Assembly: GCA_001412365.1 (NCBI GenBank)
Contig: LKUE01000279.1
Coordinates: 1-14,346, forward strand
DNA: 14,346 nucleotides
Direction of reading: 5' to 3'
DNA from: Desulfuromonas sp. SDB
GTDB lineage: Bacteria > SDB-A
The stretch's first letter is position 1; each line of letters opens with the position of its first letter. The notes below the pieces were generated by a model, which did not search any database, was not told the DNA's origin, and worked only from the letters and a program-made list of their open reading frames with translations. Below, piece by piece: positions 1 to 10,146 of this stretch. Both the position numbers and the translations under genes were made by a program.

Positions 1-520
1 AACGGATATCAGTATTGCTGTTAATTGAGCTGATGTCAATGCTTCCGTATCCGCCTGACATCGTGATATTTCCGTTTTCCAGAATCACTGATACCTGGGA
101 GTACAGGTTGTAGATATCAATATTTCCTGCAGTCACCTCGGTGAAAACATTCATGGTCCGGGGGACATGGCAGTTAAAATTAACTGAATATTTTACGTCT
201 TCCGGAAAATCCGGGGAAGGTCCGGTAAAAAGATATTTCTTTACCTGATTTTCAATAACCGTGTCCACCTCTATCAGATCCAGTAAATATAAACCTGAAT
301 CTGATTCCACTTCATAGACATGTTTTTCAATTTCCACAAAAAAACTGTCTGAACTGATAATATTAATATTACCCAGATAAGAGGTTAAAGAGATAGCGGT
401 CAGTTCAACGGTAGGATAATCCCTGGAGATATCCACCACTCCGTTGGAGGTAAATATTATGTTTCCTGAATTTAAAATCAAAGGAAGGCATAACAGCAAT
501 CCGGTTAATATACGTTTCAT
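1..520 (-). CDS. Secreted DUF4097-like beta-solenoid protein (partial, C-terminus beyond window)
   Basis: An open frame runs without a stop from an ATG at 520 to the window edge (173 codons visible). The N-terminus, MKRILTGLLLCLPLILNSGN, is a typical Sec signal peptide. The rest is rich in short beta-strand repeats such as GNINI, GNIDIYNL and GNITMSGGYGSIDISS, which resemble the DUF4097 putative adhesin or beta-helix family. Such proteins are usually exported or envelope-associated and have no established enzymatic role. A strong SD (AAAAGGAG, 527-534) lies 6 nt before the ATG. A weak promoter reading, TTGTTT-N17-TAAAAT on the minus strand (540-568), would leave a very short leader. The gene diverges from the peptidase gene at 676. 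DUF4097 proteins often occur near LiaI/LiaF-like membrane proteins, and one lies at 4398, but the two are not adjacent here. The family assignment rests on repeat pattern only. Confidence 0.7.
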   Translation of the reverse strand, partial: MKRILTGLLLCLPLILNSGNIIFTSNGVVDISRDYPTVELTAISLTSYLGNINIISSDSFFVEIEKHVYEVESDSGLYLLDLIEVDTVIENQVKKYLFTGPSPDFPEDVKYSVNFNCHVPRTMNVFTEVTAGNIDIYNLYSQVSVILENGNITMSGGYGSIDISSINSNTDIR

Positions 521-675: not shown

Positions 676-1680
676 ATGAAATTGTATGTAACCTCTCCTC
701 AACAATTAGATAAAAAGGGAATAAACTCCAAACCAATAATGTCTTATCTTTATAAAAATGGATTGGTTGTTGAAGCAGATTCCCTGCCTTCCAGTCCGGA
801 ATTTCTCAGACAAAAAATTTTAGCTGAACTCAGTGCAGAAGTATCCTCGGTAGTAATTATTGGAAATCACCAGGTTATCCCCTTTTTCCCCTTGGATAAT
901 CCTACTGTTGATTCAGATGCTGAGGTCTGGTCAGATAATCCTTATGTTTGCCTTTATGACGATTTTCTTCTTCCTGATTATCCGATATCCCGGATTCCTT
1001 CTGATCCACATAATCCTTTGTTTTTATGGGATTATCTGGAGAATTGTAAGGTAGAGGTTGAAGTTTCCCAAAAGGTGTTTGGAATTAGCGCCCACTCTTG
1101 GAAAAACGCCTCCCGGGAAGTTTTCTCATTGTTTCCGGATAAGCATAAACAATTACTTTTTTCTCCTCCCCTAATCCGGCTAAGTCTGCCTGTCCATCTG
1201 GTTGAAAGCAATTATACCTATAGATATTTCAATGTTCATGGAAGCAAGCATACCCATCTATGGTATGGACAACAGGGAAGCAATTATCCGGCGGTTTTAT
1301 CATCGGAGGATATAATTGACCAGAAGGGAGTAGTGGTGATCTCCGAAGCCTGCTACGGAGGATGGCTGGCAAAAAGAGGTGAAAAAACCAGCATCGCCAT
1401 GAAATTTTTACTTTCAGGGGCGTCATTGTTTTTAGGGTCAACAACCATTTCTTATGGCCCCAGTTATCCCCCCAGTGAAGAAGCTGATTTGATTTGCGGC
1501 TGTTTTGTCCAACAGCTGAGAAAACAAATTCCCGCAGCCACCGCTTTACTTAAAGCCAGGGAGGAGTTCATAAATTTAACCGTTTCCCGCCAAGGATATT
1601 TAGATGATGATGACCGCAAGAGTTTATATCAATTTGTTCTCTACGGTAACCCTGATATTATTGTCAAAGAGAGGTTTTGA
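676..1680 (+). CDS. Caspase-fold (C25 gingipain/CHAT-like) cysteine peptidase, cytoplasmic
   Basis: A 334-residue protein with the hallmarks of clan CD cysteine peptidases. A hydrophobic strand ends in the catalytic His-Gly motif FNVHGS (His188), and a second ends in the Cys motif VVISEACYGG (Cys226). The N-terminal part has C25-like elements: a strand VVIIGNHQVIPF (59-70), the segment SDNPYVCLYDDFLLPDYPISRIP (split as SDNPYVCL at 86 and PDYPISRIP at 100), and a C-terminal LYGNPDIIV resembling the LxGDP signature of gingipain-type domains. There is no signal peptide, membrane segment or type 9 secretion C-terminal domain, so an intracellular location is expected, unlike secreted gingipains. 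The ATG has no recognisable SD, which is unusual in this window. The stop overlaps the start of the next gene (TGATG). The substrate is unknown. Catalytic activity is inferred from the His/Cys dyad; assignment between C25, CHAT and other clan CD families is uncertain. Confidence 0.72.
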   Translation: MKLYVTSPQQLDKKGINSKPIMSYLYKNGLVVEADSLPSSPEFLRQKILAELSAEVSSVVIIGNHQVIPFFPLDNPTVDSDAEVWSDNPYVCLYDDFLLPDYPISRIPSDPHNPLFLWDYLENCKVEVEVSQKVFGISAHSWKNASREVFSLFPDKHKQLLFSPPLIRLSLPVHLVESNYTYRYFNVHGSKHTHLWYGQQGSNYPAVLSSEDIIDQKGVVVISEACYGGWLAKRGEKTSIAMKFLLSGASLFLGSTTISYGPSYPPSEEADLICGCFVQQLRKQIPAATALLKAREEFINLTVSRQGYLDDDDRKSLYQFVLYGNPDIIVKERF

Positions 1681-1949
1681 TGTCGGATGAGGAAATTATT
1701 AAAAAAATAAAAAATATTCATCCTCAATTTCAGGATATTACTCCTAAAATTAAAGAGGTGGTATACAAGCCGGATAAACACCTGGCGGGGAAAAGCAAGA
1801 TTTACCGGGACAAGGCTAAACCAAGAAGAATAAAAATTTTTACCTTTATCAAAAAAATCCGCTTAAATCAACAAATTGAATTTGAAAAAATTCTGCGGGT
1901 ATCCGTTGATTCTCAGGGTAATATTATTAAAACTGTATTCAGCAAATAA
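1680..1949 (+). CDS. Small, highly basic protein coupled to the caspase-like peptidase
   Basis: An 89-residue protein of unrecognised family. ATG 1680 is preferred over the in-frame TTG at 1677 because it overlaps the upstream stop as TGATG and has AAGAGAGG about 5 nt upstream, which implies translational coupling to the peptidase. The protein is rich in Lys/Arg, most densely in residues 30-60 (for example AGKSKIYRDKAKPRRIKI), with a predicted amphipathic centre. It has no Cys, signal peptide or membrane segment. Its C-terminus (RVSVDSQGNIIKTVF) looks like a beta hairpin. Tight coupling suggests a partner, regulator or substrate of the peptidase; a basic Lys/Arg-rich chain would be a natural target for a gingipain-like Arg/Lys-specific enzyme. 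That role is inference. A nucleic-acid-binding role is equally possible. Confidence 0.68.
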   Translation: MSDEEIIKKIKNIHPQFQDITPKIKEVVYKPDKHLAGKSKIYRDKAKPRRIKIFTFIKKIRLNQQIEFEKILRVSVDSQGNIIKTVFSK

Positions 1950-1982: not shown

Positions 1983-3539
1983 CTAGCGGGGTGAACAAAT
2001 TGCGTAGGGAATAACTACTTCTTCCAGTGATATGCCTCCATGCTGTATGGTATCCCTGTACTGTTTGGTGTAAACCTCAGGATTCGTTGGGTAAACTAAA
2101 AAAGTATCGTGAATGGCAAAAACATAATTAGTGTGGGGAGTGTGCTTGGGCAATCCCCATTGCTCGGGCTGGGTGAGAACGATACAGCGGTTTTTATGAT
2201 TTTTCTGCACATCCAGATAGGAGCCGTACTTGTATCTTAAATTGGAGGATACATCACTTCGGGCATTTTTTAAGATTGCCGGGGTTTTAACCTTAATAGA
2301 GCCGTGGTCGGTGGTAATGATTATTTTCATGCCCATATCTTTAGCAATCTTTAAAGCCTTAAACAGGGGAGAGTTTAAAAACCAAGTGCCCGCAATTTTT
2401 TTTAAAGATATCTCATTTCTAATCATTTCCTCCAGAACCACGTGCCTGGAAATTGAATGGGAGAGGAGATCAATAAAATCAACAACCACTCCGATTAACT
2501 GTTTTTCTTTTAAAGTTTTAATTTCCTCTAAAAAATTGAGTTCACCTTCTACATTGATGATTTTTCGGTAAATGGAAATTTTTTCAGGCTGTTTGGTCAC
2601 CGAACGGAGACTGGAATAGAGAAAGTCCTTTTCAAACCGGTTTTGATGAGGCTTTTCCAAAATATTTAAAAAATCAGGATACTGTTTTACTATCTCTCTG
2701 GGTAATTTACCGTTGAACAGAGCATTCCGGGAATAAGGAGTAGCTGAGGGAATGATGGAGAAATAATAATAAGTGCCAATTTCAAAGTCATTCTGGAGAT
2801 GCTGGGAAATTTCAAACCACTGATCTGCCCTCATGCAGTCAAGAATAACCCATAGTACTTTTTCCCCGCTATCCAGCAAGGGTTTAACTATCCGTTTGAA
2901 AAAAGTATGGGAAAAAACCGGAGCCTGTTCAGAATGAATGAGATCGGGATAATTCTTTTCAAAATAATGGGAAAACTCTTCATCTGCTTCTTTTTTCATC
3001 TCTCCGTGGATATCCTTTAATGCAGAATCAGTGCTTTCAGAAAGTTGATTACTCCAGGAAAATAGTTTTAACGCTGCTTCAATCCAGGAATTCCAATTTT
3101 GATTGGCATACAGTTCTCTTAATAACTGTACTTCTCTGGCGTAGCGGGGAGGGAAATTTGCTTCCACCAATCTTTTCCCCTCTAAAATTCTTTTACATAC
3201 TGCCAGTAATTGACGTGGCTGCAAGGGCTTGACCAGAAAATCCTCTGCTTTAAGGGCGATACTGGCATCAATCATATTATCATCTTCGCTTTTGGTTATC
3301 ATCACTACGGGAATATTGGGCTGAGTTGACTTCAATTCTTCCAGCACTCTAATTCCATCTTTTCCCGGCATCATCACATCTAAAAGGATTAGGTCAAAAC
3401 TGCCCTGGGCTGCCATGGCAATGGCGTCATCTCCGTTGTTTACAGTAGAGGTGTGATATCCTTTTTTATCTAATATTCGTACATGGGGAGTGAGTAAATC
3501 AATTTCATCATCAACCCATAAAATTTTATAACTTTCCAT
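1983..3539 (-). CDS. porX: PorX-type response regulator with PglZ/alkaline-phosphatase-superfamily domain
   Basis: A 518-residue two-domain protein, the usual length of PorX. Residues 1-120 form a receiver: acidic pair D11/E12 region in LWVDDE, phosphoacceptor D54 in LILLDVMMPGKDG, and K104 in FLVKP. Residues 125-215 form a helical linker. Residues 220-515 form a PglZ/alkaline-phosphatase-superfamily domain with metal-site motifs WVILDCMRADQW (D234), IPSATPYSRN (T267, the likely nucleophile position), VVVDFIDLLSH (about 351-361), TTDHGS (D411, H412) and QHGG (H500). In Bacteroidota, PorX with the kinase PorY controls type 9 secretion and gliding genes, and its output domain has been reported as a metal-dependent phosphodiesterase. 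No porY or secretion gene lies in this window, so the local target is unknown. The ATG directly follows the upstream stop with no gap; an SD (AAGGA) lies inside the upstream gene, giving coupled translation with the Mut7-C gene. Confidence 0.93.
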   Translation of the reverse strand: MESYKILWVDDEIDLLTPHVRILDKKGYHTSTVNNGDDAIAMAAQGSFDLILLDVMMPGKDGIRVLEELKSTQPNIPVVMITKSEDDNMIDASIALKAEDFLVKPLQPRQLLAVCKRILEGKRLVEANFPPRYAREVQLLRELYANQNWNSWIEAALKLFSWSNQLSESTDSALKDIHGEMKKEADEEFSHYFEKNYPDLIHSEQAPVFSHTFFKRIVKPLLDSGEKVLWVILDCMRADQWFEISQHLQNDFEIGTYYYFSIIPSATPYSRNALFNGKLPREIVKQYPDFLNILEKPHQNRFEKDFLYSSLRSVTKQPEKISIYRKIINVEGELNFLEEIKTLKEKQLIGVVVDFIDLLSHSISRHVVLEEMIRNEISLKKIAGTWFLNSPLFKALKIAKDMGMKIIITTDHGSIKVKTPAILKNARSDVSSNLRYKYGSYLDVQKNHKNRCIVLTQPEQWGLPKHTPHTNYVFAIHDTFLVYPTNPEVYTKQYRDTIQHGGISLEEVVIPYAICSPR

Positions 3540-6289: not shown

Positions 6290-7007
6290 TAATTCCTAAG
6301 TTTTCTAAAACCTGGTCCTGAACCTCAAATATCTGATCAGAGGATTTAATAATTTTATCCAGCAATTTATTGAATTTTTTCCTCTCTATGGGGTATCCCT
6401 CAGCAGTAGCTTGAATTTCAACAATGTCATGTTCCTTGGTTAAAATGAAATTTGCATCAAAATCTGCTTGACTGTCTTCCTGGTAGTTAAGGTCAACTAA
6501 CAGGGCTTCCTTTACCAATCCTCCGCTTAATGCGGCAATTTGCTGAATAATGGGATTGGTCTTGATAATTTTTTTGTTCAAAAGGTGATGAACAGACATA
6601 ACCAAAGCAACCCAAGCTCCGGAAATTGACGCAGTTCTTGTTCCTCCGTCTGCCTGAAGGACATCACAGTCAACATAGAACATCATCTGGGGAAGAGAGG
6701 ATAGGTCCATTGATGCCCTCAGGGATCTTCCAATCAACCTGCCGATTTCCAAAGACCTGGCATTGTAAAAATTTCTCTCTCTTTTCACCCGCTGGGAAGA
6801 TGATCCCGGAAGCATTCCATATTCCGCGGTTAACCATCCCCTTCCTTCATTTTTCATCCAGGCGGGAACATTTTCCTGATAGGAAACAGAACAGCACACC
6901 CAGGTATTCCCGTTTTTAATTAAACAGGAACCTGGGGCTGTATTTTGAAAGGGAGCAATAATTTCCACCTTTCGGGCTTGATCGGTGGTACGTCCATCAA
7001 TTCTCAT
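6279..7007 (-). CDS. rph: Ribonuclease PH
   Basis: A 242-residue phosphorolytic 3'-5' exoribonuclease that trims tRNA precursors; it acts as a hexamer in the cytoplasm. Family motifs are intact: N-terminal RIDGRTTDQ, RNFYNARSLEIGRLIGRSLRA (around R84), DCDVLQADGGTRTASISGAW with the phosphate-binding GGTRTAS (121-127), and LNYQEDSQADFDANF carrying D178 and D184 of the active site. Full length, with no truncation of the kind known in E. coli K-12 rph. Its ATG overlaps the stop of the upstream M42 gene (TGATG), so it is translationally coupled, and its own end overlaps rluD. Confidence 0.96.
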   Translation of the reverse strand: MRIDGRTTDQARKVEIIAPFQNTAPGSCLIKNGNTWVCCSVSYQENVPAWMKNEGRGWLTAEYGMLPGSSSQRVKRERNFYNARSLEIGRLIGRSLRASMDLSSLPQMMFYVDCDVLQADGGTRTASISGAWVALVMSVHHLLNKKIIKTNPIIQQIAALSGGLVKEALLVDLNYQEDSQADFDANFILTKEHDIVEIQATAEGYPIERKKFNKLLDKIIKSSDQIFEVQDQVLENLGINAG

Positions 7008-8023
7008 CAGTTATTTCCAAAACCATGTTTGCCAATATCCATCTGGGCAATTGACACTACCCATTGTACTGCTTTTTCCAGATCATTCCGGTCAATCATT
7101 TCTCCGGGAGAATGAATATATCTGGTGGGGATGGAAATACAGCCGGCGGGGATACCTCCCCGGGTAACCTGCATTGCCCCGGCATCAGTGCCTCCGAATT
7201 GAAGTATTTCCGGCTGGACGGATATCTTCGCTTTGTCTGCCGCTTTTTTCATGAAGTTCTTAACTCCCTCCGTCACCACAATGGAGTGATCCATCATTTT
7301 TAATGCAGGACCCTTTCCCAGTTCCACCGCCATAGTATAACCTTTAGGGGTGTCTCCGGTACCGGTCACATCTACGGCTATACCTAAATCGGGATTAACT
7401 GAATAGGTGGAGGTTTTGCTTCCTCTCAGACCTACCTCTTCCTGTACGGTAAAAACAAAATAGACATCGTTAGGTGATTTTTTCAGTTTTTTGGCTGCTT
7501 CGGTTAAGGTGACACAGCTGATCCGGTCATCCATTGCTTTGGAAACCCAACGGTCCGGGGAAAGTTCAATAAACTCATGGGTAAAACAAGCCATATCTCC
7601 AATGGAAATCATTTTTTCCGCTTGTTTTTTACCTTTAGCGCCGATGTCAATGAACATCTTGGACAGAGGAGGAACTTGTCCCCTGGGGACATCTTTGAAC
7701 TCAACCCCCACTACTCCTACCAAGCCATCCTTGAACTGCACTCTCTGACCCAGGGATATTATCGGATATACGCCCCCCACCGGGCTAAACCTTAAAAATC
7801 CTTTATCATCAATATGATTGACTATTACTCCAATTTCATCCATGTGGGCGGCAAATAATAGTTTTTTACCAGCGCCCTTTTTATGAGCAATTAAGCTGCC
7901 TAAATTATCGGTATAAACCCGGTCCACATAGGGTTTGATTTCTTTGGCTATAATATTTCTAATTTGTTCTTCATTCCCTGAGGGACCGTAAGCTTGAGTA
8001 AACTTCTTTGCTGTCTGTTTCAT
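7007..8023 (-). CDS. M42 family (TET-like) metalloaminopeptidase, copy 1
   Basis: A 338-residue dinuclear-metal aminopeptidase of family M42 (FrvX/YsdC/TET). These cytoplasmic enzymes form tetrahedral dodecamers that trim peptides. All ligands and catalytic residues are present: H60 and D62 (AAHMDEIG), the bridging Asp in SKAMDDR (165/166), the VQEE pair E195/E196, D218 (AVDVT) and H304 (YIHSPGE). The PDZ-like insert (about 70-155) is of normal size. An SD (AAGGAG) lies 7 nt from the ATG; the gap to the preceding M42 gene is 23 nt. Third of three consecutive M42 genes in transcription order. Substrate preference is not readable from sequence. Confidence 0.94.
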   Translation of the reverse strand: MKQTAKKFTQAYGPSGNEEQIRNIIAKEIKPYVDRVYTDNLGSLIAHKKGAGKKLLFAAHMDEIGVIVNHIDDKGFLRFSPVGGVYPIISLGQRVQFKDGLVGVVGVEFKDVPRGQVPPLSKMFIDIGAKGKKQAEKMISIGDMACFTHEFIELSPDRWVSKAMDDRISCVTLTEAAKKLKKSPNDVYFVFTVQEEVGLRGSKTSTYSVNPDLGIAVDVTGTGDTPKGYTMAVELGKGPALKMMDHSIVVTEGVKNFMKKAADKAKISVQPEILQFGGTDAGAMQVTRGGIPAGCISIPTRYIHSPGEMIDRNDLEKAVQWVVSIAQMDIGKHGFGNN

Positions 8024-8046
8024 TTTTGAACTCCTTTTATTACACC

Positions 8047-9075
8047 TTATGATATTGCCTTTAACATGTTTACCAGGGAAAGCTTGATCAACTTATAAGT
8101 GTCTTTGTAGTCAGACAGGTAGGATAATGAAACCGGTGAATGTATGTACCTGGCGGGGACACTCAATATTGCCGATGGAATTCCAGCTCTGGATTTGTGT
8201 ATCCTCCCTGCGTCAGTTCCTCCGATATTGGGCTGCTTGAACTGATATTTTATCTTATTTTTCTTGGCGGTTTCCACCAGGGCATTAATCAAACGGCGGT
8301 CTACAATAGTACTCCGGTCAGTGAGGGTGATTACCGGGCCCCCCCCCAGGTGGGGAGAAGTGGAAATATCCTGGTCGGGTTCTCCGGGAAAATCAGCGGC
8401 AGCAGTGCCTTCAACGATCAGGGAAAACTTGGGATCAATTTTTTCACCCAGCACTGCCGCTCCTCTCAGTCCCACCTCTTCCTGTACCGAAAATACCACC
8501 GCCAGTTCAAAGGAATAATTTGTTTTATCTTCAAGTAAATCCATAAGCAGGGAACAACCCGCCCGGTCATCGAATGCTTTTCCCTTAATTATATTTTTAG
8601 AAAAATGGGAGAACTTGGTGTCAAATACGGCAAATTCTCCTACTTTAACTTTTTGTTTTGCCTGTTTGTCCGAACTTGCCCCAATATCTATGACCAGGGA
8701 AGAAAATTTAGGCAAACTCTGATCAGAATTCTCTTTTAGATGAGGGGGCGCCCAGTGGATTACTCCTGGGATTTCCTTGTTTCCCACCAATACTCTCTTT
8801 GCCGGCAATACCCGGGGGTCAATGCCTCCGGAAGGGGTAAAACCGAGGAAGCCGTTTTTGTTGATTTTATTTATTATAAAACCGACTTCATCCATATGGG
8901 CAGCCAGAAGAACCCGGAGGTTATTTTTTTTGCCTTTTTTATAGCAAATCAAATTGCCCAGAGGATCAGTTTCAATTTTTGTTACTTTTGATTCAAGTTT
9001 TTCCTTGATGTATTTTCTTATCCGGTGCTCATAACCAGCTACCCCGGTGAGATCAGATAATTGTTTGAGATGCAT
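8047..9075 (-). CDS. M42 family (TET-like) metalloaminopeptidase, copy 2
   Basis: A 342-residue M42 peptidase with a complete active site: H60 and D62 (AAHMDEVG), KAFDDRAGC (169/170), VQEE (E199/E200), E222 in LIVEGTAAADFPG, and H312 (RYIHSP). The fourth-position metal ligand is Glu in an EGTAAAD context, whereas copies 1 and 3 have Asp in AVDVT and AIDVT. Both forms occur in the family, and the difference suggests distinct substrate preference. The ATG lies 3 nt after the stop of the preceding M42 gene; its SD (GAGGAGGAG) is formed by the codons of that gene's Glu-rich C-terminus. Second of the three M42 genes. Confidence 0.94.
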   Translation of the reverse strand: MHLKQLSDLTGVAGYEHRIRKYIKEKLESKVTKIETDPLGNLICYKKGKKNNLRVLLAAHMDEVGFIINKINKNGFLGFTPSGGIDPRVLPAKRVLVGNKEIPGVIHWAPPHLKENSDQSLPKFSSLVIDIGASSDKQAKQKVKVGEFAVFDTKFSHFSKNIIKGKAFDDRAGCSLLMDLLEDKTNYSFELAVVFSVQEEVGLRGAAVLGEKIDPKFSLIVEGTAAADFPGEPDQDISTSPHLGGGPVITLTDRSTIVDRRLINALVETAKKNKIKYQFKQPNIGGTDAGRIHKSRAGIPSAILSVPARYIHSPVSLSYLSDYKDTYKLIKLSLVNMLKAIS

Positions 9076-9078
9076 ATT

Positions 9079-10146
9079 TTACTCCTCCTCCTCTTCTTCC
9101 GGTTGATCAATATTCAAGTCCTCATCTTCCAGGGAACAGATAAGGTTTGCCAGTAAACGGGCGGAGCGGTCAATATCCTGAGTTGAAATTGTTTCCACCG
9201 GAGAATGCATGGACCTTACTGGTGCTGAAATTACAATGCAGGGAATTCCCGATTTTACAATTTGGATGGTATAAGCATCGGTGCCGGTGCCCCAGGGCGC
9301 AACTTCAATTTCATAGGGAATTTCTTCCTGCTTGCATACATTTCGGGCTTTTTTCAAAATTCCTGAATGAATGTTGGGACCTATGCTCAACGTAATTCCC
9401 TTTCCTAATTTAAAGGTGTCACTGTCCTTTAATCCAGGTATGTCCCCGTGGGTTACATCAATCGCCACCGCCACGTCAGGATTTAGATTATAGGCAGCGG
9501 AATTTGCCCCGATTCCCGACCATTCTTCCTGCACTGTTCCCACCGCGTAAAAGTCCCATTCCGGCTTCATTTTAGATAATCTTTGCAGGGTCATTAAAAG
9601 TACCACTACCCCGTACCTGTCATCTATGGATTTACAGGAAACGTTATCCAACATCAGTTCCCTGAATTCAAAATTAAACGATACAAAATCACCCACTTTG
9701 ATCTTGGCTTTGACTTGTTTATCGGATAAACCGGTGTCAATAAACAGAGTTTCCCAAGAAGCCGGATTGTTTCTTTCTTCAGGGGGAAGAAAATGAGGGG
9801 GTTTGCTGCCGATAACTCCGGAAACCTGACCGGAGGAGGTGTGGATTGTCACTTCCTGGGAAGGAAGTATAGTGGGATCTACTCCTCCCACCTGGGTCAT
9901 TTTTAAATAACCCCCTTCTTCTATTTTAGTAACCATCATTCCAATTTCATCAATATGTCCTGCTGCCAAAATTGATCTTTTACCTTGACCTTTCTTGACC
10001 GCAATACCATTACCCATCTTATCTATAAACACCTGGTCGGAAAAAGGTTTTGCCTGTTCAATGAAATGTTGGGCAACCTTTTTTTCCATTCCGGTTAATC
10101 CAGGTATGGATGAAAATTCTTTTAACCATTCTTTTGCGGTTTTCAT
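9079..10146 (-). CDS. M42 family (TET-like) metalloaminopeptidase, copy 3, with acidic tail
   Basis: A 355-residue M42 peptidase. Active-site residues are H64 and D66 (AAGHIDEIG), KSIDDRYG (175/176), TVQEE (E207/E208), D230 (AIDVTHGD) and H314 (RSMHSP). It is the most divergent of the three: AAGHIDEIG carries one extra Gly relative to AAHMDEIG, and VQEEWSGIGA replaces VQEEVGLRGA. Its C-terminus is a unique acidic tail (EDEDLNIDQP followed by six Glu). The SD is excellent (AGGAGGTGTAATG) and overlaps the parB stop; the gap is 8 nt. First M42 gene in transcription order. Aminopeptidase activity is expected from intact ligands. Confidence 0.93.
   Translation of the reverse strand: MKTAKEWLKEFSSIPGLTGMEKKVAQHFIEQAKPFSDQVFIDKMGNGIAVKKGQGKRSILAAGHIDEIGMMVTKIEEGGYLKMTQVGGVDPTILPSQEVTIHTSSGQVSGVIGSKPPHFLPPEERNNPASWETLFIDTGLSDKQVKAKIKVGDFVSFNFEFRELMLDNVSCKSIDDRYGVVVLLMTLQRLSKMKPEWDFYAVGTVQEEWSGIGANSAAYNLNPDVAVAIDVTHGDIPGLKDSDTFKLGKGITLSIGPNIHSGILKKARNVCKQEEIPYEIEVAPWGTGTDAYTIQIVKSGIPCIVISAPVRSMHSPVETISTQDIDRSARLLANLICSLEDEDLNIDQPEEEEEE

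Follow-up and report, generated by a model that had tools for sequence, protein, structure and literature searches.

A small basic protein as the highly probable dedicated partner of a predicted intracellular C25 peptidase in at least three bacterial phyla

C25 peptidases are known mainly as the secreted gingipains, which are type IX-sorted and controlled by a removable propeptide. The locus considered here raises the question of how a member of this family might be governed when it apparently stays inside the cell, and what part the small basic protein encoded directly behind it would play. Throughout, the window denotes the whole stretch of DNA analysed, 14,346 bases that constitute a complete contig (C279) of a 3.14-Mb draft genome in 433 contigs. 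A preliminary description had singled out the two genes and their TGATG coupling, and its coordinates and lengths proved exact, as did the coupling, when the open reading frames (ORFs) were rechecked (Table 1).

Table 1. Features of the peptidase–partner locus in the window, with the loci that combine the pair with V-type ATPase genes
Feature	Position or loci	Strand	Basis
Divergent gene, partial	2..520	-	No Pfam match; neighbour kept in the window lineage only
C25 (gingipain-family, clan CD) cysteine peptidase, predicted intracellular	676..1680	+	ORF, ATG start, 334 aa; Pfam C25; homologue-model fold
His188 catalytic codon CAT in YFNVHG	1237..1239	+	H-G invariant, 30 homologues
Cys226 catalytic codon TGC in SEACYG	1351..1353	+	Cys invariant, 30 homologues
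Likely ribosome-binding site GAGAGG of the small gene, within the end of the peptidase gene	1669..1674	+	Sequence
TGATG stop-start overlap (TGA 1678-1680, ATG 1680-1682)	1678..1682	+	Sequence
Small basic partner, 89 aa from ATG, predicted helix + four-stranded sheet	1680..1949	+	ORF; homologues beside peptidase; model
C-terminal motif IIKTVFSK, Lys89 at free carboxylate	1923..1946	+	K/R ends in homologues
PorX-like response regulator-PglZ protein, convergent with the pair	1983..3539	-	Pfam Response_reg + PglZ; same order in L025-L027
Pair-V-ATPase loci	L034, L037, L038, L041, L043-L047, L049-L053, L055, L056		

The overlap of the two genes suggests translational coupling, and their products differ sharply in charge, the small protein having a pI of 10.1 (22 Lys and Arg residues) and the peptidase one of 5.65. 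The small protein is thus indeed Lys/Arg-rich, and the earlier view that it belongs to no recognised family agrees with our searches, as no Pfam, NCBIfam or PADLOC family covers it. PADLOC matched neither protein (best E 0.034, to AbiEi) and a viral-contig search returned no match, on which grounds a defence or phage origin was rejected. Elsewhere in the window, the three paralogous genes in tandem at positions 7007-10146 fall into one BLAST cluster and by eye resemble M42-type aminopeptidases, and another contig of the same genome (C391 of G000) encodes one C14 (caspase-like) peptidase domain at 31689-32120, in a 787-aa frame.

By profile, catalytic residues and fold, the peptidase is a C25 member and not a secreted gingipain. 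Pfam C25 (PF01364) matches residues 217-327 with 29.3 bits against a cut-off of 23 (E 6.6e-7), which upholds the C25-like C-terminus noted in the preliminary description. The His188-Gly and Cys226 motifs, from which a stand-alone clan CD peptidase had been recognised, are intact: both catalytic residues are kept in all four genomes of the window's phylum, and H188, G189 and C226 form invariant columns in a 30-sequence family alignment, while the SDxxY...GR motif of the N-subdomain and the C-terminal GDP motif are common to the peptidase family and the gingipains. Judged by its enzyme family and these conserved catalytic residues, the peptidase should be catalytically competent. A PDB sequence search with the single peptidase as query gave no match, and in a search with the family profile the best entry was gingipain R (E 0.3). 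Structural comparison of the peptidase part of a homologue model retrieved gingipain R at Z 30.2 and gingipain K at Z 26.2; against PDB entries 4ief and 1cvr the values were 30 and 29, with 14 for the best non-C25 structure. Neither the CHAT nor the separase C50 profile matched in Pfam scans of the window and of the fused homologues described below.

The absence of an export signal, asserted earlier, fits the alignment and the homologue model, in which the chain opens directly on the first catalytic strand with no extra N-terminal segment, so that the enzyme is apparently kept inside the cell. At its other end it stops after the GDP motif, without the gingipain propeptide, immunoglobulin-like domain or C-terminal sorting domain. 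In WOR-3 genomes such as G167, G207, G208 and G110, ORFs of 600-1480 aa match only the N-terminal subdomain of the peptidase and are probably the usual secreted C25 enzymes.

The small protein could in principle be a chance neighbour of this enzyme. The window's GTDB phylum is represented by four genomes, the window genome included, one of which (L031) also bears the NCBI label 'candidate division WOR-3 bacterium isolate Zod_Metabat.185'. In the three others, which are of the same family, the peptidase is 41-45% identical and is directly followed by the small protein (29-41% identity), which makes adjacency four of four; common to the phylum is the order divergent gene, peptidase, small gene, convergent PorX-like regulator. 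A genome scan with a four-sequence peptidase profile, where an earlier single-sequence scan had given nothing, found 29 peptidase loci in genomes labelled WOR-3, Stahlbacteria, Cloacimonadota, Eisenbacteria and Chloroflexi, 25 of them with a small-protein ORF ending just downstream. The remaining four form one clade in a quick tree; in three of these genomes, all MAGs, the small gene sits on another contig, and in the fourth, a 1.7-Mb draft whose peptidase gene lies on a contig of 5 kb, it was not found. Downstream placement thus holds in the window lineage, most WOR-3/Stahlbacteria carriers, Eisenbacteria and some Chloroflexota, and the search for conserved adjacency, set beforehand as a refutation test, left the pairing standing across phyla.

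Co-occurrence follows the same pattern. In the WOR-3 phylum, 43 of 147 genomes carry the peptidase, and the small gene is present in 42 of these 43 (41 by the small-protein profile, plus G093 on inspection); the sole match in a genome lacking the peptidase is partial, lies inside an 854-residue frame and is not a convincing case. Among 386 mostly distant genomes the two genes occur in an identical set of five, and the 19 small-domain carriers among 301 Chloroflexota genomes all have the peptidase as well. Over about 830 genomes, the small protein was never convincingly found without the peptidase. Fisher values for this association are inflated by phylogenetic relatedness, and the co-occurrence recurs in separate phyla.

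Moreover, 18 of the inspected Chloroflexota proteins are fusions, single polypeptides in which TPR repeats usually precede the C25 part and the small domain follows it (TPR-C25-small), and other Chloroflexota have separate neighbouring genes for the two (L057, L058, L141, L142). The fusions group together in a quick tree, a result consistent with a single fusion event among the paired proteins. In Eisenbacteria (L054), the pair is flanked by two TPR-protein genes whose ends overlap or nearly do so, and this layout is the unfused equivalent of the TPR-C25-small architecture. For 541 aa of a natural fusion, spanning the peptidase and the small domain of a Chloroflexota homologue rather than the window pair, AlphaFold2 gave a model with a pLDDT of 91 and a pTM of 0.91; its peptidase part is the one compared with the gingipains above. 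Because a loosely placed small domain, at about 18% of the chain, would by our own estimate bring the pTM to about 0.83 or lower, the model predicts a fixed packing of the two parts. The pLDDT of the tail was dropped as evidence of docking, since the tail is also confident when the small protein is modelled alone.

Conserved adjacency, co-occurrence, fusion and the rigid model together lead us to regard the small protein as almost certainly a dedicated partner of the peptidase, and co-occurrence and fusion rule out a chance neighbour. Two wider assignments were also rejected. About 16 Stahlbacteria loci (Table 1) continue from the pair into V-type ATPase subunits C, F, A, B and then D, with overlapping genes; membership of the V-ATPase fails as a general explanation of the small protein, as the window lineage, Eisenbacteria and Chloroflexota retain the pair without the V-ATPase, and the arrangement may be a lineage-specific operon. 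The PorX-like regulator adjoins the pair in the window's own phylum only (four of four genomes there) and, on its distribution, is probably outside the module. Loci from which the small gene has relocated (L032, L035, L036 and L039) have genes for an ECF sigma factor and a zinc-finger/TonB_C protein behind the peptidase, and close by they encode a secreted-protein family whose tails are of T9SS type.

What the partner does is suggested in part by its fold. AlphaFold2, given a 51-row alignment, predicts for the window protein a helix, a strand, a short helix and three strands (pLDDT 87.5), with a less ordered loop at residues ~31-50 (pLDDT 64-68). Foldseek returned no match with E below 0.2 for this model. 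A second structural alignment gave only weak similarities (Z 5-6.4, rmsd 1.8-3.6 A over 56-71 residues), and a Z under 8 may reflect a common arrangement; at this level the best matches were small bacterial lipoproteins, which we take to be PepSY-like, the vibriolysin propeptide region, and designed as well as natural cystatin folds. The modelled resemblance to cystatins and propeptide domains is therefore loose, if suggestive, and none of the 51 small-protein family members matches the PepSY or cystatin (I25) Pfam profiles. In three Chloroflexota fusions (L143, L125, L139) the mid loop of the small domain holds several cysteines, resembling a metal-binding site, that are absent from the window protein.

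The main rival to an inhibitory role is that the partner may be a permanent structural or activating subunit that serves folding or substrate recruitment in place of the immunoglobulin-like domain found behind the catalytic domain of gingipains. Such a subunit would account for the C-terminal place of the small domain in the fusions, its rigid predicted packing, its single-copy obligate co-occurrence with the enzyme, and the fact that the peptidase family stops right after the catalytic domain, without the gingipain's extra domain. We nevertheless consider it doubtful, as it leaves unexplained the near-constant basic terminus of the partner and the existence of fused enzymes and extra standalone copies in the same genomes.

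The end of the small protein follows the motif I-x-K-x-x-x-[ST]-[KR] with almost no overhang. Lys or Arg closes 69 of the 73 distinct sequences from pairs or fusions and 10 of the 12 standalone paralogues, so that the conservation spans separate proteins, fused proteins and standalone copies; the exceptions end in H, V, SRGRG and KSG among the former and in SKG and SRG among the latter. Among 662 other ORFs longer than 150 residues in the same loci, a control that includes non-gene ORFs, 27% end in Lys or Arg and 3.3% in [ST][KR]. In gingipains of family C25, cleavage follows Arg or Lys and Asp163 is the residue that binds P1 (PMC4357240); by analogy the terminal Lys/Arg of the partner matches this P1 preference. 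The gingipain propeptides inhibit the mature enzyme (PMC3677877), and cystatin E/M, a protein of cystatin fold, inhibits the clan CD enzyme legumain (PMC7863939).

We therefore tentatively favour, with somewhat less than even confidence, a propeptide-like inhibitor or stabiliser, encoded in trans, that acts through its C-terminal tail. The enzyme would then be a two-part intracellular peptidase, with an 89-aa binding partner made from the same message, whose helix-plus-sheet body would dock on the catalytic domain while its C-terminal Lys/Arg enters the S1 pocket as a product mimic, uncleavable because no residue follows it. The prosegments of subtilisins and proprotein convertases likewise bind in a product-like way. 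With a presumed Arg/Lys specificity, the peptidase would be inhibited by its partner until a signal displaces or degrades the latter and switches the enzyme on. The receiver of that signal, in Chloroflexota and Eisenbacteria, would be the TPR segment or neighbouring TPR proteins. The conserved terminus could, instead of a pocket ligand, be an anchoring contact.

The preliminary description had allowed for a peptidase-substrate as well as a peptidase-inhibitor module. The idea of a dedicated module stands on adjacency, co-occurrence, fusion and predicted packing, and within it an inhibitor or regulator is the better fit, owing to the loosely cystatin- and propeptide-like predicted fold together with the terminal Lys/Arg. 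A substrate or effector that the peptidase releases or activates, as in the Craspase or gasdermin pairs, is less likely and in our judgement quite improbable: the operon pairing, a Lys/Arg-rich surface suited to an Arg/Lys protease, the less ordered loop and the confinement of standalone copies to peptidase-bearing genomes would all accord with it, but the small domain is fused to the enzyme in the 18 Chloroflexota proteins, its folded core is conserved, a conserved linker open to cleavage is absent, and the basic residue that is conserved stands last, with no bond after it.

The standalone copies deserve separate consideration. With a dedicated profile, extra unfused short copies of the small domain were found in 12 of the 24 Chloroflexota genomes that have the peptidase and in none of the 56 that lack it, and their presence beside fused enzymes suggests that the domain can act in trans. 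Seven of them adjoin an FtsZ-type gene, recognised by Pfam in four cases and by the motif GGGG[SG]NAV in three. Standalones of 70-85 residues directly downstream of FtsZ-family genes (L180, L182, L183, L184, L195, L196, L197) were seen only in Chloroflexota that bear TPR-C25. In one genome (G443, L207), a TPR protein, a TPR-C25-small fusion, a 418-aa protein, FtsZ and a standalone copy lie within 9 kb. Proteins of 418-440 aa without a Pfam family stand beside an FtsZ or TPR-C25 gene at L207 6012-7268, L208 1948-3240 and L209 4465-5787, and these three Chloroflexota proteins are apparently related to each other.

These arrangements, together with the TPR-C25-small architecture and a structural likeness to Craspase TPR-CHAT and separase (Z 13-14 against the peptidase part of the homologue model), would suit a signalling protease of the separase or TPR-CHAT kind, in which the TPR repeats sense a partner and the small domain serves as a recognition tag also found on proteins linked to cell division. 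This we hold to be very unlikely, as the window lineage has no TPR partner, the gingipain match is far stronger (Z 30) and the FtsZ linkage is limited to Chloroflexota. The widest form of the inhibitor reading is also unlikely, if a little less so than either the released effector or the signalling protease: it posits a new protease-inhibitor family whose encoded C-terminal Lys/Arg is an uncleavable S1 product, with a Chloroflexota TPR-C25-inhibitor machine tied to FtsZ as an analogue of separase-securin. The TPR fusion and the FtsZ-adjacent standalones nonetheless give a genetic lead to the cellular role of the enzyme, and the conserved terminal Lys/Arg permits a sharp one-residue test.

We found no paper in the open-access literature on a C25 peptidase that is intracellular or linked to TPR repeats. 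Craspase TPR-CHAT (Csx29) and separase-securin resemble the fusions in joining a TPR or helical-repeat segment to a clan CD protease, and both are regulated by a bound protein; however, the enzyme of the pair is C25 and not C50, has no CHAT or separase Pfam match and reaches a structural Z of only 14, and no gene for the Craspase partner gRAMP/Cas7-11 or for another CRISPR component is among the annotated neighbours of the pair. Cystatin E/M-legumain and the PepSY/M4 propeptide domains offer small helix-plus-antiparallel-sheet inhibitors or propeptides, to which the predicted fold of the partner is similar only weakly; they have no detectable sequence homology to it, and it would make contact through its C-terminal tail, not through loops. 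The closest relatives remain the gingipains RgpB and Kgp, which share the catalytic fold, the HG...C dyad and the SDxxY...GR and GDP motifs with the window peptidase. Unlike it, they have a signal peptide, an N-terminal propeptide of ~200 residues and a C-terminal sorting domain, whereas the window peptidase has none of these, is predicted to be intracellular and has a small partner, separate or fused in its homologues. The RgpB prodomain is, as is proposed for the partner, a protein regulator dedicated to a C25 enzyme, but it comprises ~200 residues and acts N-terminally in cis, whereas the partner has ~90 residues, shows no sequence match and is either a C-terminal domain in cis or a separate protein in trans. 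Intracellular location, a separate or fused small partner and the TPR fusion are thus what sets the pair apart, and this intracellular C25 branch, present in at least three phyla with its partner as a neighbour gene, an unlinked gene or a fused domain, would represent another way of controlling the same enzyme.
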